Shown here: positions 8,152 through 23,358 of the stretch, piece by piece
Layout: each line of letters opens with the position of its first letter
Numbering within the stretch: the stretch's first letter is position 1
IMG/VR virus record: IMGVR_UViG_3300037827_001079
Coordinates: 1-24,134 of that record
DNA: 24,134 nucleotides
Strand: one strand, 5' to 3'
Source: a virus
The notes under the pieces: model-generated
The model's database searches: none
Seen by the model: the letters and a program-made list of their open reading frames with translations, nothing else
Told to the model about the DNA's origin: nothing
Made by a program: the position numbers and the translations under genes

Positions 8152-8339
8152 CGCTTGCCCGCTTTCTTTTTCGGGAGTCGGATGTCCATATCGATCGCAA
8201 CGGTAACGGTCGTCTTGATCTTCACGGAGAACCCCGCGGACTCGAGAGCTCGCTTGATCTTGAGGACGCGGTCGGTCGCGAGCGCGACGTCATAGAGGCT
8301 AATCGGATCGATCGGAGGAGTTTCGATTCTCTCGCTCAT
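8148..8339 (-). CDS. 63-aa hypothetical protein
   Basis: The ATG at 8339 overlaps the preceding stop as ATGA and the stop overlaps the next start in the same way. The sequence predicts a helix (ATDRVLKIKRALESAGF) followed by a run of beta-branched residues (VKIKTTVTVAIDMDIRL) and a basic tail KKKAGKR. This helix-strand layout with a basic tail could bind nucleic acid or a partner protein, but there is no recognised motif. Confidence 0.68.
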   Translation of the reverse strand: MSERIETPPIDPISLYDVALATDRVLKIKRALESAGFSVKIKTTVTVAIDMDIRLPKKKAGKR

Positions 8340-8830
8340 CGAGTCACCCCGCGCGCTTTCGCGAGCTCGGGATACTTAAGAGCCCACTCCTGCCAGTCGG
8401 AGCGGAGCGAGCTCTCGCAAGCCGCGCGCGCGTCCGTTTCTGAGAGCTTTCGCCCGACGAGCTTGTACTCGCAGTCGAGCTCCTGATTCTCGAGCGATCG
8501 CTCGGCCATCCGGCCGGCCTGGGTGTTTTCCGTCGGCGCCGGCGCCGGCGTGTCGGTTTTTTTCTGAGTGCATCCCGCAAGAGCGAGAAGCGCGACGAGT
8601 GCGAACATCGTCCGAGATGCTTTCGCGGCGAGCGCGGCCTGGAGCACGTACCATGCGCGACGCTCGAGGACCTCGTCGATCGAGAGCGGTTGTTTCTCGT
8701 TTCGCTTGAGAGCCTGAGCTTCGCTCATGATCTCGCTCTGTTCGGCCTGTGAGAGCTTCTCCCAGGTGCGGGAGTCCTGATTGCGTACTTGCCAGTTGCG
8801 GAGAGCTTCGTGGAGGTACTTTGTGTCCAT
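8336..8830 (-). CDS. 164-aa protein with internal membrane segment and lipobox
   Basis: The chosen ATG at 8830 has a GAGGGAGA ribosome-binding sequence just upstream and gives 164 residues. Residues 1-70 are charged and helical. Residues 75-87 (MFALVALLALAGC) form a short hydrophobic segment ending in a canonical LAGC lipobox, followed by a Thr/Pro/Ala-rich linker like that of lipoproteins. The C-terminal part has Cys120 and Cys138. A lipoprotein signal normally lies at the N-terminus, so there may be an internal start at Met75 or another start, giving a Rz1-like or other outer-membrane lipoprotein of 90 residues. Alternatively the full protein is a single-pass membrane protein. It is the first gene of the cluster after TerL. 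Confidence 0.65.
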   Translation of the reverse strand: MDTKYLHEALRNWQVRNQDSRTWEKLSQAEQSEIMSEAQALKRNEKQPLSIDEVLERRAWYVLQAALAAKASRTMFALVALLALAGCTQKKTDTPAPAPTENTQAGRMAERSLENQELDCEYKLVGRKLSETDARAACESSLRSDWQEWALKYPELAKARGVTR

Positions 8831-11582: not shown

Positions 11583-12974
11583 TTAGGGAGCGACCTCGAG
11601 CTCCTCGGGGATCGCGATCTCGACTGGACCGCGAGCTGCGACCGCGCGTTGGGGATCGCCTTTCAGAAACACGAGTATGTTCTGGTGCGTCTTCGCGAGC
11701 TTCCCCGTCGTCGAGAAGGTCTTCGCCGCTCGGATAGGAAGCGATCCGAGAGCCGTGACGAGAATCGCCTCGTTGTAAAACTCGAGCCCCGCTTCCCGGA
11801 ACGCGCGAACCGTGTCGCCGACAAAATTCAGATAATGCCCCTCCGTGTCGCGCACTTCGCCGACGACGAAACAGGCGAAGCGATCCGCCTTTAGAGCCGA
11901 GCAGCTCGCGGAGATGATCTCCGAGTACGCTTCGACGAACTGCGGATATTCCATCGTCGAGAGATCCAGGGGGTTGTCGCTGTATCGCTCGAGCCCGACG
12001 TAAGGCGGAGAGGTGAAAATAAAATCGAACTGCTCGCCCTTCGTCAGAGATCCCAACCGCCGGGAGTCGCCCACGGTCCACTTCGGAGCGGTCTCCTTCT
12101 TGGTCAAGATCTTCCGAGCCTGTTGTTCGTTTGCCCGGATCTGTGCCGAGCTGAGATCGATCCCGCGATACTTCCGGCCGAGCTTCGCGGCCACGATTCC
12201 GCGAACGGATCCGCCGGCGAAAGGATCGAGGACGACGCCGGCCGGCGGAGCGAACCAGCGATAAGCGATTTCACAGAGAACCGGATCGAAGATGCTCGAG
12301 CCCGTCTGCGCGCCGGTGATGAGCTCTTTCCCCGACGCCTTCGCCTTCTTGTACTCGCCGAGCTTGGCGTATCCGCCGGCGTTCGCCACATCCGAGAACC
12401 CGAGCATGTTGTCATCTCGGCCGAGCTCGCTCCGGATCCCGAGCGCGATCCACGCCCGCTTCCGATCCTGCCACCAGCCGTCGCGCGCGCTGAGGACGGA
12501 GAACGGAGGGACCAGGAACTTATCGGCGAGCCGGCCGGCGATCGCTTCCGAGTCGACGCCGGCCAGGATCCGCTCCCACTCCTCCGTTTCGAATCCGGTC
12601 ATCGACAAGTCGTAATCAGCTCCGCGGAGATCCTCGAGCTCGAGCTTTAACAAAACCTGATCCCACTCGGCGCCTTCGTTCGTGCGATTGTCGGCGATCC
12701 GATACGCGCGGACCTGATCGGCCGAGAGCTTCTCCGCGATGTGGACGGGGACCTCGGCGAGCCCTAATTTGTGAGCGGCGAGCAATCGCGTATGTCCGAC
12801 GATGACGACGAGCTTCTTGTCGGTAACGATCGGTTGCCGGAATCCGAACTCCTGGATCGAGCGCGCAACGCCGGCGATCACTTCATCGCTTCGCGTGCGG
12901 GGGTTCTTGTCGTACGGGATCACGTCGCCGATCTTGACCTGGAGGACCTTGTATCCGTGGCCGTTCTTTTTCAT
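11583..12974 (-). CDS. ParB-like nuclease domain fused to DNA methyltransferase
   Basis: This 463-aa protein has a ParB/Srx-type domain at about 9-100, with NPR at 24-26 and the core motif GHTRLLAAHKLG at 60-71. A linker is followed by a SAM-dependent DNA methyltransferase: AdoMet-binding motif I LDPFAGGSVRG at about 249-259 and catalytic motif IV TSPPY at 321-325. SPPY-type motifs occur in amino-methyltransferases for N4-cytosine or N6-adenine; the target base and sequence cannot be read from the protein. Such ParB-MTase fusions are common in phages and may protect phage DNA from restriction or take part in packaging-related marking. The ATG at 12974 overlaps the previous stop as ATGA. It lies immediately before TerS. 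Confidence 0.9.
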   Translation of the reverse strand: MKKNGHGYKVLQVKIGDVIPYDKNPRTRSDEVIAGVARSIQEFGFRQPIVTDKKLVVIVGHTRLLAAHKLGLAEVPVHIAEKLSADQVRAYRIADNRTNEGAEWDQVLLKLELEDLRGADYDLSMTGFETEEWERILAGVDSEAIAGRLADKFLVPPFSVLSARDGWWQDRKRAWIALGIRSELGRDDNMLGFSDVANAGGYAKLGEYKKAKASGKELITGAQTGSSIFDPVLCEIAYRWFAPPAGVVLDPFAGGSVRGIVAAKLGRKYRGIDLSSAQIRANEQQARKILTKKETAPKWTVGDSRRLGSLTKGEQFDFIFTSPPYVGLERYSDNPLDLSTMEYPQFVEAYSEIISASCSALKADRFACFVVGEVRDTEGHYLNFVGDTVRAFREAGLEFYNEAILVTALGSLPIRAAKTFSTTGKLAKTHQNILVFLKGDPQRAVAARGPVEIAIPEELEVAP

Positions 12975-16821: not shown

Positions 16822-16907
16822 GCGACTCGTCCTTTCGCTCGAGCGCGGCATTGTCGACAGTAGCGACCGAACGTCACGTACTTGCGGCATCTACACGGCG
16901 CGATCAT
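16818..16907 (-). CDS. 29-aa cysteine microprotein
   Basis: This 29-residue frame starts at the ATG at 16907, coupled as ATGA to the ATPase stop, and ends coupled as ATGA to the next gene. It contains Cys5, Cys7, Cys17 and Cys20 and many basic residues (CRCRKYVTFGRYCRQCRARA), a plausible mini zinc knuckle that could bind nucleic acid. Filling exactly the space between two coupled genes argues that it is translated. Confidence 0.6.
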   Translation of the reverse strand: MIAPCRCRKYVTFGRYCRQCRARAKGRVA

Positions 16908-18199
16908 GCGGTCGCCTTCTCTTTGACTGCATCTTTCACGGCGCCGTCCTCCATCACCACGCCGACCTTCCCGCTCGTGTCGACGCGCTCGATCCAGATT
17001 TGATAATCCTCGGCCGCGGCCATCTTCGCGAGGAGCTTCATGCTCGACTCGTCCAGGAGCGATCCGTCCTGGATCCGGAGCACTTTGAGCTTTGGGTTTG
17101 CTGCCATCGCGACCGCGACCGAGACGCGGAGCTGCTCGGCCGAGCTCGCTTGATCGAAAGGGAGCTCGTTGTATACGACCTCGCCCTCGCCGAACGAGAG
17201 TCCCTCGATCGGCATCTTCGCCGCGGCGACCGCTTTGTTCTTCGCGGTTGTCCGCGCGGCCATTGCTTCCGTCAAAGCGTCCGCGGCGTCGCGCTTTTTC
17301 TTAGCCTGGGCAAAGATCGCCGCTTGCTGTTTTTTCTTCTGGACGCTCGCGTTGATCTGTCGCGCGGAGTCGATCAGCTCGCGGAGCTCGGTCGTGTTGA
17401 CCGGATCCGGGATCTTCATCTCCTCGAGCGTCTTCGTGTCGGTGAGGTTCTTCGCGATGTCTTCCTCGGCCGCGTCGTCGCACTCTTCCGCTTGCCTCCG
17501 AAGCCGCTCGGCCTGGAGTCGGGACTCGTGAGCATGCGAAGTTCGAGCTTTGATCGTTTGTTCGAACGCTGACCGATCGGATCGCGCGCGCTCGATCGCG
17601 GAGTTCTGCCGGCCGGCCGCTTCGAGCTCGCCGGCGAGCTTCGAGATGTCGATCTCCTCGTCGGGAGTGTCCTCGGGAAACGTGAAGCCGAATCCCTGAG
17701 CATCGAGCGACTTGATCTCGCGATTGAGCTCGGTCCGCTTCTCGAAGTCGTTCCGATTGTCGGCGTCGAGTTTGTCCAGGTCGACGTCGAGCTTCACCAT
17801 CGAGCGAATCTGCTCGAGCTGCTTTTTCGGATCCATCCGAGAAAACTCGAGCGGATCGAACGTAAGTTTTCCGAGCATCTCATCGAGGAGACGTTGCGGA
17901 GTAGGGAAGCGCGCGCCGTTTTTCGCTTCCGCGACGAGCGAGGTCCCGGTGTCTTTCGAGAACTTGCGCGTCACGGTGACCTCGCCGAGCTCGAGCGTGA
18001 CGTGTGCTTTGAGCTGTCCGCGGCGAATCGGTTGTGACGGGATGTCCTTCGCGCCGGCGAGCGCGTAAAAGATCGCGTCGAGGACGCTGGACTTCCCGCT
18101 TCCGTTCGGTCCGGTGATCTCGACGATGTGACCGTCGGGACGGATCTCGACGACCTTGAGCTTCTTGATGTTTGCTGCCTCGAATCGGAGAATCTTCAT
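16904..18199 (-). CDS. Rad50/SbcC-like AAA ATPase
   Basis: The ATG at 18199 is coupled as ATGA to the previous gene and gives 431 aa. The N-terminus has Walker A ITGPNGSGKSSVLDAIFYAL (GPNGSGKS at 30-37). A charged, largely helical region lies at about 145-330. The C-terminus has the signature SSAEQLRVSVAVA (352-364) and a Walker B-like LKVLRIQDGSLLD (371-383, Asp378). This is the SMC/Rad50/RecN layout with a short coiled coil and no CxxC hook, smaller than SbcC (about 1000 aa). It may act in phage DNA recombination or end processing with the nucleases upstream. No SbcD-like partner is visible in the window. The family assignment is firm, the role is inference. Confidence 0.85.
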   Translation of the reverse strand: MKILRFEAANIKKLKVVEIRPDGHIVEITGPNGSGKSSVLDAIFYALAGAKDIPSQPIRRGQLKAHVTLELGEVTVTRKFSKDTGTSLVAEAKNGARFPTPQRLLDEMLGKLTFDPLEFSRMDPKKQLEQIRSMVKLDVDLDKLDADNRNDFEKRTELNREIKSLDAQGFGFTFPEDTPDEEIDISKLAGELEAAGRQNSAIERARSDRSAFEQTIKARTSHAHESRLQAERLRRQAEECDDAAEEDIAKNLTDTKTLEEMKIPDPVNTTELRELIDSARQINASVQKKKQQAAIFAQAKKKRDAADALTEAMAARTTAKNKAVAAAKMPIEGLSFGEGEVVYNELPFDQASSAEQLRVSVAVAMAANPKLKVLRIQDGSLLDESSMKLLAKMAAAEDYQIWIERVDTSGKVGVVMEDGAVKDAVKEKATA

Positions 18200-18417
18200 G
18201 CTGTCCTCGCTTTCGGTTTGTCGACTTCTGGAACGGGTTCGAACGGTGCATCGGTGACGATCCGGAGGAGCTCCGTCACGGTTGTTTCGACCTGGGGATT
18301 GACTGAGCAATCGATGAACGTTTGCGTCGCGCGCGGGTTCGCGAGGAGCGCGAGGAGCGCGTCGACGAGTGCGAGCTTCTGTGAGCTCGAGATCCGGAGC
18401 GTGTACTTTCCGATCAT
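18196..18417 (-). CDS. 73-aa hypothetical protein
   Basis: The ATG at 18417 overlaps the 94-aa gene stop as ATGA; the stop overlaps the ATPase start in the same way. The N-terminal part has a strand (KYTLRISS), then a helix (QKLALVDALLALLANP) and ends with a Pro-rich basic tail. No motif was recognised. Its coupling directly ahead of the ATPase suggests a possible partner. Confidence 0.68.
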   Translation of the reverse strand: MIGKYTLRISSSQKLALVDALLALLANPRATQTFIDCSVNPQVETTVTELLRIVTDAPFEPVPEVDKPKARTA

Positions 18418-18698
18418 GAGGCGAATCGCTCCTCGATCGGTTTCTTGAACTCCTCGACGATCGCGGGAATAAAGTCCGCGTGGACGAACGGGATCTCGAT
18501 CTCGTCGTCGACCTGGAGCGTCGACTTCATCGGGTCGGTGACTTTCAGTCGCGCCGATCGCCCGAGCGACTCGCAGCATCGCGCGCGAAAGTCGCCGGTG
18601 TAATAGCCCTTTACGGCGTACACTCGGCCGATCGTGAGCGTGAATTTCGGTTTTTCCTTCGTCCGCGCGTGATTGCCTTTGAATGCTCGAGCTCTCAT
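18414..18698 (-). CDS. 94-aa hypothetical protein
   Basis: The ATG at 18698 overlaps the loader-like gene stop as ATGA. The protein has a basic start, then a likely beta barrel (FTLTIGRVYAVKGYYTGDFR, SARLKVTDPMKS, QVDDEIEIPFVHADF) and a C-terminal helix (IVEEFKKPIEERF). The short strands and basic residues recall an SH3- or OB-like fold, so nucleic acid binding is possible, but I do not recognise a family. Confidence 0.68.
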   Translation of the reverse strand: MRARAFKGNHARTKEKPKFTLTIGRVYAVKGYYTGDFRARCCESLGRSARLKVTDPMKSTLQVDDEIEIPFVHADFIPAIVEEFKKPIEERFAS

Positions 18699-19186
18699 GC
18701 TGTTCGCCTCGCTTTCTCGATTGCTGCCTGGATCCGGACTTTCTGATCCTGGAGCTCGGCGCGCCGTCCGGGAGCGCTCTCCGGGATCCGCTTCGAGCCC
18801 ACGATCGCGTTGAACTCGCGGAGCACGTCGGCGAGCCCGATCATCTCTCCCCGCGCGCGCCGGCGTTCGGTCTCCTCGTGGTCGACTCGAGCCTTCGCCG
18901 CGCGCTTCCGATCCTGCTCGGCCTTCACCCAGGTCGAATAGAGCTCGGTGATCTCGGCCGGTACCGGAAAGAACCTGCTCGTCCGAAGATGCTCGGCGAA
19001 CGCCCACTCGATCCCCTCAATTCGATAATTTCCGAGGAGTCGTTCCCAGAGCAGTAATTCCCTCGGCTCGAGCTCCTTCCTCGTCATTTGTGCCGAAACC
19101 GTCAATATCCCATTCAGGGTGAGCGTCCAGGACCGCTCGAGCGTTGTGCCGAGCGCGCCGTTCGTCCGAGCTAATTCGAGCGCCAT
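18695..19186 (-). CDS. Putative replication/helicase-loader-like protein
   Basis: The ATG at 19186 has a good GGAGG ribosome-binding sequence and gives 163 aa; Met34 (19087) is a possible later start. Residues about 44-80 contain LLLWERLLGNYRIEGIEWAF, then AEHLRTSRFFPVPAEITEL. A helix followed by an F-P-P-EI motif is a pattern seen in phage lambda P-like and other loader-type proteins. The rest is a charged helix. Position right after a winged-helix initiator with iterons supports a replication role. The first 170 bases overlap the end of the initiator gene in another frame. The loader role is a hypothesis. Confidence 0.6.
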   Translation of the reverse strand: MALELARTNGALGTTLERSWTLTLNGILTVSAQMTRKELEPRELLLWERLLGNYRIEGIEWAFAEHLRTSRFFPVPAEITELYSTWVKAEQDRKRAAKARVDHEETERRRARGEMIGLADVLREFNAIVGSKRIPESAPGRRAELQDQKVRIQAAIEKARRTA

Positions 19187-19724
19187 AATTCGACCTCCGT
19201 GAGTCGTTGGTTTTTGTGTGCAGGGAGAACAAATTTGGAGATGGGAGCGCGGGGTTCCGGTTCCCTTGATGGTTAGGTGATGATTCTTCCTTATTGCGCT
19301 GTCGTGATTTGCACCAGTCGATGTCGCCAGATGCACTAGTCGATGTCGCCAGATGCACCAGTCGATCCGGATAAGGCGTTTGTACGTCTGGTGCAGGAGA
19401 CGCACCAGAACTTTGACCATTCGGACGCCCTAAATTTCGTTTCAATCTCCACGGTTTTTTCTGCGGGAGCTGATCGAGCCGGATCTGGTAAACGACTCCC
19501 CCTCGAGAGATCTCGCCGACGGGGGTGAGGACCCCGTTGTCCCGATACTTTTTCACGTACATGGCGACGGTCCTTCGCGAGAGTCCCGTCTTCCAGGTCA
19601 GGTAGCTCCAGGACGGGTGAGCGAGGTAATCGTCGTCGGCACAATCGCCGATCGCCTGGAGGAAGATGAGCTCGAGCGGGGGAAGGTCACAAAGCCAAAT
19701 GTGCGATTGAACTCTAATACTCAT
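19017..19724 (-). CDS. Winged-helix replication initiator (lambda O-like role)
   Basis: The ATG at 19724 has an AAGGAG ribosome-binding sequence and gives 235 aa. Residues about 15-83 form a winged helix: PLELIFLQAIGDCADDDYLA, then SYLTWKTGLSRRTVAMYVKK (41-59) as the HTH, and a wing GEISRGGVVYQIRL. This matches the DNA-binding domain of phage replication proteins. A flexible middle follows, and the part around residues 119-141 is encoded by three 22-bp repeats, as the lambda origin lies in gene O. The C-terminus (from about 180) is low-complexity and overlaps the next gene by 170 bases, so the true end is uncertain. DNA binding to the iterons is inferred. Confidence 0.7.
   Translation of the reverse strand: MSIRVQSHIWLCDLPPLELIFLQAIGDCADDDYLAHPSWSYLTWKTGLSRRTVAMYVKKYRDNGVLTPVGEISRGGVVYQIRLDQLPQKKPWRLKRNLGRPNGQSSGASPAPDVQTPYPDRLVHLATSTSASGDIDWCKSRQRNKEESSPNHQGNRNPALPSPNLFSLHTKTNDSRRSNYGARISSDERRARHNARAVLDAHPEWDIDGFGTNDEEGARAEGITALGTTPRKLSN
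19301..19366. repeat. Three 22-bp iterons, candidate replication origin
   Basis: Three abutting 22-bp units lie at 19301-19322, 19323-19344 and 19345-19366. Units 2 and 3 (plus strand gtcgccagatgcacYagtcgat) differ at one base; unit 1 differs from unit 3 at a few positions in its left half but keeps the right half gcaccagtcgat. They are inside the initiator gene, and because 22 is not a multiple of three they encode different residues in each copy. Flanking sequence at about 19261-19300 and 19428-19460 is relatively AT-rich. Confidence 0.8.
19387..19409. repeat. Inverted pair of the iteron core next to the iterons
   Basis: tctggtgc at 19387-19394 and gcaccaga at 19402-19409 form a perfect 8-bp inverted repeat with a 7-base spacer, 20 bases from the last iteron. 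Both arms contain GCACCAG, the core shared with the iterons. The pair could bind the initiator dimer, or fold as a hairpin in the single strand. Confidence 0.7.
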
Positions 19725-19750
19725 CCAGTGGTTCTCCTTGTCTCGCTCAT
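19721..19750 (-). other. Nine-codon coupled mini-frame before the initiator gene
   Basis: An ATG at 19750 overlaps the nuclease stop, encodes MSETRRTTG and stops overlapping the initiator ATG at 19724, so both ends show ATGA. The initiator ribosome-binding sequence lies inside it. It may simply be a relay that couples initiator translation to the nuclease; a functional peptide is unlikely. Confidence 0.3.
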
Positions 19751-20271
19751 GAAAGAGCCGAGCGGTTTTTTTCCAGCCGGTCGCCTATGAGCTGCAGAAC
19801 GTCGGCCACGCTCCAGGCGACCATGACGATCGCTCCTCGTGACTGTTTCGAATCCAGGAAGTCGAGCTGATCTTCGGTCGGCCTTCCTGCCTCGCGGATT
19901 ATCTGGGAATAATTTTCGGGATTGATCCACGCCGGCGCCTTGACCTCGATGTAGAGACTCACGCCGTGGGGAGCGAGCGTCGCCGTGAGATCCGACCAGC
20001 CGGCCGGAATCCCGCCGTTCTTGAACTTCACGATCTCGCGAACGTCGACGCCGCGCGTGTAAGCCGCGGCGATCATGCGGCCGCGCGCTCGCTTCATCCC
20101 GGCATCTATGGCGACGGCGTCGACCCGATAGAACGCGAGATGGTCGATGATCCCGGTCTGGACCACCTCCTCCGAGACCTGACGGACGAGGTAATCGTTC
20201 GAATATCTCGAGCGGTCGAACTTCCAGAGAAACGGTCTCGTGAGCGTCGGCATAGGGGGAAGTGGGGACAA
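19747..20271 (-). CDS. VRR-NUC domain nuclease
   Basis: This protein of 174 aa (TTG start at 20271) or 168 aa (ATG at 20253) has a VRR-NUC fold at about residues 35-165. Visible motifs are the GWSD motif in GGIPAGWSDLTAT (Asp94), LYIEVKAP (Glu109, Lys111) and PTEDQLDFLD (Gln135). This is the PD-(D/E)xK set of structure-specific or Holliday-junction-type nucleases found in phages. The ATG has no purine-rich upstream sequence, while TTG has GGGGA, part of a hairpin, so the start is uncertain. It sits between the annealing protein and the initiator and probably processes recombination or replication intermediates. Confidence 0.85.
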   Translation of the reverse strand: MSPLPPMPTLTRPFLWKFDRSRYSNDYLVRQVSEEVVQTGIIDHLAFYRVDAVAIDAGMKRARGRMIAAAYTRGVDVREIVKFKNGGIPAGWSDLTATLAPHGVSLYIEVKAPAWINPENYSQIIREAGRPTEDQLDFLDSKQSRGAIVMVAWSVADVLQLIGDRLEKNRSALS

Positions 20272-21413: not shown

Positions 21414-22445
21414 TTAAGTGAGCTCGAACTCGGCCGACTCCGGGATCGGCGAGTCCGCGTCCTTCGCGCGCTTCGCGACGAACCGACGCCCGCCGCGCTT
21501 TGTGATGACGCTTTCCATGCACTGCTCTCGCACGCGGGTGAGCTCGATCTCCGGGATCGAGTACATCTTCGCGAGGAGCTCGAGCGCCTTATCGAAATTG
21601 ATCCGCGTCTCCGTCGAGTCCTTGCAGAGTCGCCACGTAATCTTTCCCCAGGGACCGACGATCCCGTCGCTCTCGGCGAGAAACGCTTTCACTTCGTTTT
21701 GCGCGCCGGTGAGCTTCGCCTTAAAATCGCGGATCCCGTCGGCGTAATTGAGAGCGTTGAAGACGTGGCGCATGAGTGCGGGATGCGAGTTCTCGTCGAC
21801 CTTGAGGATCGCCCCGCGGTTGAACGGATACTTGTGCGCGAGGTAGTTCCCCCAGGCCTCCGACGCATCGAGCGGAGGTTCGATCTTCTTCACGACGTAC
21901 GCATGCCACCAGTCGCGGAGCTGCTCGAGCATCGATCTCTCGAGCACCAGGTCGCGGCCGAGCTGATAGATAGCGAACTTGAATCCGCCGTGAAGCACCG
22001 CGATGTCGCACCGATCGAGGTTCGCGACGGCCATATAGTGCGCGGCCTGGAGAACGTAGTGGTCCGGAACCTGATCGCTTCCTGGATCCCCGAACTTATC
22101 GGCGAACTGGTGCTCGCTCTTGAGCTCGACGACTCGGCCGTCCTGGGGAGCGAGCCGATCGGGGGAGCCGATGATCTCGGGAAACTCGAGATGCTGGACG
22201 ATCTCCGGATCGGGAACGAAGACTTCTCGAGAAGTCTGGTCGCAGTAGAGTCCCGCGATCACGGGCTCGAGGAGATGACCGAGCTTGAACAAAAACTTCT
22301 CGTCATCGGTCGGAGGGGACGGATGGACCTTCGATCGCCAGATGTCAACGGGGGACCTCCAGGGATCGAGACCCAGGACGGCCGGATTGTCGGATCCGCC
22401 GAGTCCGAGCCGGCGAGCTTCTAGCCACTGTGCGCGCGCGCTCAT
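21414..22445 (-). CDS. YqaJ-type viral recombinase exonuclease
   Basis: The ATG at 22445 overlaps the PLP gene stop as ATGA and gives 343 aa. It matches the YqaJ/lambda exonuclease family: the start RRLGLGGSDNPAVLGLDPW (11-29), GHLLEPVIA (56-64), GSPDRL (93-98, Asp96), VVELKS (105-110, Glu107, Lys109) and HYVLQAAHYMAV (129-140, Gln133). These are the PD-(D/E)xK metal residues. It resects double-strand ends 5' to 3' for the neighbouring annealing protein in phage recombination. Length is slightly longer than many YqaJ proteins because of a C-terminal extension (about 230-343) that contains a second helical region. Confidence 0.92.
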   Translation of the reverse strand: MSARAQWLEARRLGLGGSDNPAVLGLDPWRSPVDIWRSKVHPSPPTDDEKFLFKLGHLLEPVIAGLYCDQTSREVFVPDPEIVQHLEFPEIIGSPDRLAPQDGRVVELKSEHQFADKFGDPGSDQVPDHYVLQAAHYMAVANLDRCDIAVLHGGFKFAIYQLGRDLVLERSMLEQLRDWWHAYVVKKIEPPLDASEAWGNYLAHKYPFNRGAILKVDENSHPALMRHVFNALNYADGIRDFKAKLTGAQNEVKAFLAESDGIVGPWGKITWRLCKDSTETRINFDKALELLAKMYSIPEIELTRVREQCMESVITKRGGRRFVAKRAKDADSPIPESAEFELT

Positions 22446-23146
22446 GCTCCCACGTTCCAGAAGAGAGCGTTGTCGGCGCCATGCTGCAACATGAAGTCCC
22501 AGGCCTTCGCGTCGTAGTTGTCGCAGCTCGGAAACGGCGGAGCGCTCCGAGAGGGTTTCTCGAAGGGAAGCGCGCACTTATAGAGCGTCGCGCGGCCGAC
22601 ATCGCAGCTCCCGCCGACCTGGACGGCGAAGAACTTGGCGCGCGGCCACGCGATTTGGAGAGCCCGCGAGAGCGTCCCGCTCCCTGCACAGCTCCAAACC
22701 TCTTTGGGTTTGATCGGGATCGCGGCGACGATCCGAGTGAAAGCAGCGATCGCGGAATGATCCGCAACGCCGTGGGGGACGAGTACAGCTCCCGACTCGT
22801 TCGCATATTCCCGCGCTCGAGCTTGAACAACGGCGAGATAGCCGTTCGGGACCGAGACGATCTTCGCGCCGGCGTCCTGAGCTCTTCGCGTCCGCGGGTG
22901 AAGCACTTTCCGTTGCGCCGTGAAGATCGTTGCCCGCTTGCCGACCATCGCGCAACAGTGCGCGAGCGCGATCTGTGCGTAACCGAACGCCGGCGAAGCG
23001 TACACGAACTCATTCGCCGGCGAGCTGCTCACCAGGGGGAGGACATAGCGCATCTTCGATCCGCCGGCGAGCTTGTCATCGCGGACGACGAGGAAGCGGC
23101 CGAACTCCTCGAGGACTGGATCTGGTAGTTCCGCGCGGCCGGTCAT
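22442..23146 (-). CDS. Phage PLP-dependent enzyme, fold type II (lyase/deaminase-like)
   Basis: The ATG at 23146 is coupled to the 71-aa gene as ATGA and gives 234 aa. The pattern is that of small fold-type-II PLP enzymes: FLVVRDDKLAGGSKMRY (18-34) with Lys31 as the likely Schiff-base lysine, the core EFVYASPAFGYAQIALAH (46-63), and a glycine-rich CAGSGTLSRAL (153-163) for the phosphate. I recall similar phage proteins annotated as PLP-dependent lyase/thiolase or ACC deaminase-like. They are shorter than bacterial relatives (about 300-350 aa), and the substrate is unknown. It sits next to the exonuclease in the early operon. Possible roles include amino acid or nucleobase modification, all inference. 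Confidence 0.8.
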   Translation of the reverse strand: MTGRAELPDPVLEEFGRFLVVRDDKLAGGSKMRYVLPLVSSSPANEFVYASPAFGYAQIALAHCCAMVGKRATIFTAQRKVLHPRTRRAQDAGAKIVSVPNGYLAVVQARAREYANESGAVLVPHGVADHSAIAAFTRIVAAIPIKPKEVWSCAGSGTLSRALQIAWPRAKFFAVQVGGSCDVGRATLYKCALPFEKPSRSAPPFPSCDNYDAKAWDFMLQHGADNALFWNVGA

Positions 23147-23358
23147 AATTCCGTCCCACGCGTCCGGACGTCGAGAAGTTTTCCGTCCGCGGACGATAGT
23201 TTGTCGAGTCGCTGATTCAGCTCGGCGAGCTGCTCGGCGATCAGGAAGAGCGCCTCGATCTTCGCGCACTCGGCCGCGAGCCGGCGAGCGACATCGGGAG
23301 AGTTGAGAACTCCGGCGATCGCGCCGGCGCGACGTTTATCGAGCTCCGCGGCGTTCAT
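23143..23358 (-). CDS. 71-aa helical protein
   Basis: The ATG at 23358 overlaps the previous stop as ATGA and the stop overlaps the PLP gene start in the same way. The product is predicted all-helical, with a coiled-coil-like stretch (CAKIEALFLIAEQLAELNQR) and an acidic-basic balance. A small dimerising helper is plausible. No family was recognised. Confidence 0.7.
   Translation of the reverse strand: MNAAELDKRRAGAIAGVLNSPDVARRLAAECAKIEALFLIAEQLAELNQRLDKLSSADGKLLDVRTRGTEL

Follow-up and report, generated by a model that had tools for sequence, protein, structure and literature searches.

A putative iteron-containing replication origin within the winged-helix initiator gene of a tailed phage

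The window, that is, the whole stretch of DNA analysed here, comprises 24,134 bp of IMG/VR virus record IMGVR_UViG_3300037827_001079. Its genes, nearly all on the minus strand, include an HK97-type capsid/protease, a lambda-family portal and a GpA-type terminase. A single protein encoded at 11583-12974 (minus) combines a ParB N-terminal domain with an N6/N4 DNA methylase, and a pyridoxal-phosphate-dependent enzyme (threonine dehydratase-like, PHROG 7093; 22442-23269, minus) adjoins phage recombination genes. The features of the putative replication locus are the following.

18695-19186, minus: P0002, 163 aa, putative helicase-loader-like protein, from weak PHROG matches and position
19017-19724, minus: initiator ORF P0001, 235 aa, of which the N-terminal ~90 residues alone are backed by coding signal and homology
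19188-19306, minus: A/C-rich, strand-asymmetric stretch 3' of the iterons, putative DNA-unwinding element
19265-19274, minus: AACCATCAAG, match to the element AACCRTCAAGAACCRTCA, from comparison with relatives
19310-19366, minus: three direct 22-bp iterons with half-sites CTGGTGCA / CTAGTGCA / CTGGTGCA on the gene strand
19311-19317: half-site GCACCAG, direct
19333-19339: half-site GCACTAG, direct, 22 bp from the previous one
19355-19361: half-site GCACCAG, direct, 22 bp from the previous one
19388-19394: half-site CTGGTGC, inverted
19390-19406, no strand: 17-bp dyad GGTGC-N7-GCACC, made by the inverted half-site pair
19402-19408: half-site GCACCAG, pairing with the inverted CTGGTGC to make the dyad
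19470-19724, minus: winged helix-turn-helix (wHTH, HTH_36-like) DNA-binding domain, aa 1-85, from profile matches
19542-19589, minus: recognition-helix segment, aa 46-61, the peak of the partial Mantel analysis
19747-20271, minus: VRR-NUC-like nuclease gene upstream of the initiator, a syntenic marker (PHROG 5702, Holliday junction resolvase, E 1.5e-10)

An earlier sequence-only reading had described P0001 as a winged-helix initiator gene, and the profile searches agree: the ORF matches PHROG 1032 (replication initiation) with an E value of 1e-8 and PHROG 391 ("O-like") with 1.5e-6. Pfam HTH_36 (PF13730) scores 24.2 bits against a gathering cut-off of 25, and no match to PF04492 (Phage_rep_O) was found in Pfam. 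The wHTH profile of the relatives gives the window protein 86.6 bits, the window itself being part of that profile; searched against the PDB, the profile yields a weak DnaD-type match (2vn2, E 0.094). The coding signal (GC at third position and codon log-odds) is good from the first codon of the ORF as far as about 19455, which covers the wHTH only. Past that point it is gone in all frames across the repeats, and it returns in P0002 in another frame; the array thus lies behind the DNA-binding domain and ahead of the next gene. Placement of the repeats inside coding sequence, as first proposed, holds for the open frame of 19017-19724, which spans them, and not for the coding signal. They do lie behind the DNA-binding domain, but that they are followed by a genuine C-terminus, as also proposed, is not established, since the C-terminal part of the ORF has neither coding signal nor a true homologue and is doubtful. 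Matches of Paenibacillus contigs to residues 151-226 come from a xylanase-like enzyme sharing VLDAHPEWDI and were dismissed as chance.

The initiator ORF extends 170 bp into P0002 in a different frame. A loader-like gene had been said to follow directly; P0002 does start at 19186 behind a Shine-Dalgarno sequence (GGAGGT, 19193-19198), yet the start lies inside the initiator ORF and the match to the helicase loaders of PHROG 2289 is weak (E 0.0086). PHROG 10105, a family also weakly matched by the second gene of the syntenic relatives described below, is hit with E 0.002, and the ORF containing P0002 has no match in Pfam. The assignment of P0002 as a putative helicase loader is weakly supported. 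A fusion of P0002 to the initiator by frameshift was weighed but not adopted, since P0002 has its own Shine-Dalgarno sequence and start.

Tandem Repeats Finder (TRF), run over the window, gives its maximum score of 107 to 19310-19366 (period 22, 2.6 copies, 94% matches), and a repeat search returns three copies at a spacing of 22 bp, in keeping with the three head-to-tail 22-bp units noticed before. The inverted GCACCAG pair is also present and forms the GGTGC-N7-GCACC dyad, which occurs once in the 24,134-bp window; given its recurrence in relatives, the dyad would most likely be a full site for an initiator dimer. Five GCAC(C/T)AG half-sites fall inside 98 bp (19311-19408). Five cores appeared in 0 of 2000 dinucleotide shuffles of 19186-19424 (mean 0.03), and the tandem score was unreached in 300 shuffles of the same segment. 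Outside the array, the 7-mer is present six times in the 24-kb window, unclustered. An Rfam search gave no match. The cumulative GC skew, suggested earlier as a check, makes no turn at 19.3 kb (its minimum is at 17.5 kb) and is uninformative. On the gene strand, 19188-19306 is 68% A+C and 15% T at a GC content of about 50%, and no strongly AT-rich tract lies beside the iterons.

Close relatives of the initiator or of P0002 were not found by tblastn in IMG/VR, nor were close relatives of P0002 in named phages. More distant initiators sharing the wHTH are numerous. Those found by tblastn in named phages of Microcystis, Vibrio, Sphingopyxis, Thermus, Edwardsiella and Rhodococcus have repeat arrays in their genes, directly after the wHTH. 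With three close wHTH sequences of this group as query, IMG/VR yielded 80 further loci; another scan returned four, of which two overlapped loci already obtained. A query built from the full nine-sequence wHTH alignment proved too diverse to use. Chains of at least three copies are present in about 68 of 84 genes, nearly always from codons 79-110, and almost never in the stretches upstream or downstream. With near-duplicates removed, the linker carries such a chain in 49 of 67 genes versus 0 of 67 control regions, and the first iteron of the non-redundant genes lies at codon 79-121 (median 86). Spacings of 17 and 22 bp predominate; their residues modulo 3 (2/1/0) are split 68/53/19, so the spacing is not set by codons. 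Arrays at the same place in distant relatives, with spacings that are mostly not multiples of three, argue for an origin linked to the initiator and for conservation at the level of DNA. This strengthens the earlier claim, made from the 22-bp unit, that the DNA rather than the protein is conserved. The comparison with relatives called for at the same time could be made in part: it covers distant wHTH relatives, and the search for closely related phages with this initiator found none. The window's own 17-bp dyad occurs four times in contig L112, a GGTGA variant three times in Thermus phage Cumys, and a related dyad, GGTGT...TCACC, in contig L113.

The DNA that follows the arrays is also distinctive. 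In 49 relatives, the 60 bp past the array have an A+C content of 63% vs 51% (p 5e-14) and an A+T content of 50% vs 41% in the rest of the gene (p 2e-10). In many relatives AACCRTCAAG stands directly 3' of the array, and often AACCRTCA recurs 10-11 bp on. An exact scan of IMG/VR for the 18-mer AACCRTCAAGAACCRTCA found it in at least 120 stretches. Among the matches listed, 103 of 120 have it in an ORF whose first part fits the wHTH profile, at a distance of 37-282 bp from the domain; some of the remaining ORFs are truncated where the stretch ends. Of the 119 listed matches preceded by enough DNA, 77 have a repeat chain within 150 bp, versus 1 of 119 random stretches. Its codon frames among the matches listed are 54/37/12; since it sits in all three frames, it is kept as DNA. 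The contigs concerned are L114-L233, and L033, L061 and L065 also carry it, at codons ~107-130, with ACCRTCA repeats at 10-11 bp. Microcystis phage Mvi-Yong1342-1 and contig L113 have the element as CCRTCAAGAACCAT.

In the window, the match is AACCATCAAG. Its chance of occurrence in shuffled local DNA is 0.0013, an optimistic value given that the motif was chosen after the window had been seen. The second half of the element has diverged (GGGAACCGG), and in a 20-column element scan the site ranks third in the window, with two others higher. The window copy is probably, though not certainly, genuine. The motif was not found described in the open-access literature, where matches occurred merely in unrelated neuroinflammation work. 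We tentatively propose, at rather less than even confidence, that AACCRTCAAGAACCRTCA is a sequence-specific origin element, a directional motif for single-strand recognition or unwinding. It would be common to a large class of phages with wHTH initiators and held constant by a conserved contact (loader, DnaB, SSB or a host factor) while the iterons diverge; the window would carry a diverged copy.

Each 16-residue stretch of the wHTH was correlated with the repeat 6-mers, with correction for the rest of the domain (partial Mantel). The segment aa 46-61 is the best predictor of the repeats (partial r 0.38, p 0.005), and for wing and loop segments the partial correlation is about zero. The correlation holds after removal of sequences above 90, 80 or 70% identity (p 0.002) and fades at a 60% cut (n = 19, r 0.10, p 0.16). 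That the recognition helix of the initiator dictates the repeat sequence is suggested, not proved, by this result, because wHTH and repeats lie in one gene and co-inheritance is a confounder.

Four contigs (L002, L003, L010 and L012) share both flanks of the window's module, namely the phrog_3657 family, the VRR-NUC-like gene and an AAA gene; the VRR-NUC-like gene is also kept in L011. The AAA gene of the window (16904-18310, minus) encodes an SMC/RecF-like ATPase (PHROG 1499, E 7e-101) and is kept beside the replication module in the syntenic relatives. At the spot of the initiator, these four contigs have another initiator type, with MQTRIRTIKPE... in three and a match to PHROG 16167 in L002 (E 6e-36). 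The window's repeats are absent from all four, and the linkers of their initiators contain repeats of GGAACT-type hexamers or of 15 bp instead. Tandem GGAACT/GGAACG (reading GTGTGT) occurs in MQTRIRTIKPE-type linkers at L002:4524-4564, L003:4755-4779 and L010:8398-8426, and these hexamers are possibly the origin element of that initiator class. From this comparison, the replication module is swapped as a unit, the repeats along with the initiator. Since these contigs carry another initiator, they bear only indirectly on the refuting condition named earlier, that close relatives with the same initiator lack the repeats. The initiator gene of L010 also holds a 63-bp direct duplication (8242-8412; 98% identical, 108 bp apart), which looks like recent copying of linker repeats and adjoins an inserted stretch with a putative GIY-YIG/T5orf172-like domain.

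The repeats noticed earlier are real, the reading first given to them is largely right, and they are almost certainly the start site of DNA replication of this virus. With high confidence, the locus is read as an origin of theta replication in a tailed phage, placed in the 3' part of the initiator ORF. The repeats, their position, the recurrence of the layout, the conserved element next to the arrays and the correlation of helix and repeats are observations. The wHTH initiator, probably as a dimer, would bind the GGTGC-N7-GCACC dyad and the three half-sites, whose 22-bp spacing would amount to two helical turns and place them on the same face of the DNA. The bound initiator would wrap or bend the DNA and open the adjoining A/C-rich stretch (19188-19306), to which the P0002 protein would bring the host DnaB helicase. 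Binding, bending, melting and helicase loading are inferred by analogy with the origin of lambda in gene O and with oriL of SPP1 (PMC7466680, PMC5043065, PMC6316719).

Dyad sites adjoining the gene of the wHTH protein that would bind them fit a regulator equally well, the repeats then being not an origin but an operator through which the protein controls its own operon or an antisense transcript. Plasmid Rep proteins act both as regulator and as initiator. Such an autoregulatory operator is nevertheless unlikely, as the sites lie ~300 bp inside the gene and away from a promoter, the same position recurs in dozens of relatives, many of them annotated as replication initiators, and a conserved asymmetric element follows the array. 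Still less probable is a decayed gene, in which a frameshift deprived an ancestral initiator of its C-terminal domain and left the origin as a relic in a phage that now replicates otherwise. The missing C-terminal homology, the 170-bp overlap with the next gene and the end of the coding signal at 19455 would all suit decay, as would the equally short initiator of L113 (142 aa); the coding bias of the wHTH is good, however, the ORF stays open to 19017, the iterons are well kept (94% matches by TRF) and a good Shine-Dalgarno sequence precedes the next gene. That the repeats only encode a low-complexity protein linker and have no function as DNA is hardly credible: in relatives the region does encode a flexible linker, and in Vibrio phage H20 repeats of 24 bp give the peptide repeat ENGTLNRP, but the relatives' spacings are mostly not multiples of three, the 22-bp unit leaves the peptide unrepeated in the window, the post-iteron 18-mer occupies three codon frames (54/37/12 among the matches listed), and the window has an inverted half-site pair where coding signal is absent.

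The replication origin is most easily compared with that of lambda. Lambda O (NC_001416) was measured to have its iterons at codons 116-144 with spacings of 20/24/23 bp, followed by a stretch with 50% A, and it scores 123 bits against PF04492. As in the window, the iterons and dyad-symmetric sites of lambda lie behind the DNA-binding part of the initiator gene, at a spacing of about two helical turns (22/22 bp in the window), and they are followed by an asymmetric A-rich stretch and then a helicase-loader gene, which in the window is putative. In contrast, lambda O belongs to PF04492 and is unmatched by the window's wHTH profile, the window protein being HTH_36-like, and the half-sites of the two are unrelated. 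Lambda has four iterons, each with inverted symmetry, and the window one full dyad and three half-sites; the stretch past the window's iterons is A/C-rich and not strongly AT-rich as in lambda, and the C-terminus of its initiator is unrecognisable. The description "lambda-like" is therefore apt for the layout and probably for the way of working, and not for the protein family. By its published description (PMC6316719), oriL of Bacillus phage SPP1, in gene 38, resembles the window in its direct repeats within the initiator gene, its DNA-unwinding element and its loader gp39 (the last two putative in the window), and the helicase gp40 goes with it. A second origin, oriR, and a DnaB-type helicase of its own set SPP1 apart; neither was seen in the partial record of the window. 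Nearest in protein are Mvi-Yong1342-1, Cumys, L112 and L113, which have the same wHTH family at ~28-43% identity and, like the window, arrays at codons ~80-100. The 17-bp GGTG-N9-CACC dyad is common to the window and the last three. These four differ from the window in having mostly longer, recognisable C-termini and other iteron sequences.

An origin within the initiator gene is a known layout, and it is common among the phages compared. What is new here is the A/C-rich AACCRTCAAGAACCRTCA element after the repeats in many initiator genes; the comparison also adds a rule of placement and a helix signal. Origins are unmapped for most environmental phages. Looking in wHTH initiator genes for repeats at codons ~80-120 and then an A/C-rich element would allow the origin to be located by sequence. 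The shared post-iteron motif is a candidate unwinding element. If the recognition helix dictates the iterons, the set of relatives would be material for decoding the origin specificity of phages.
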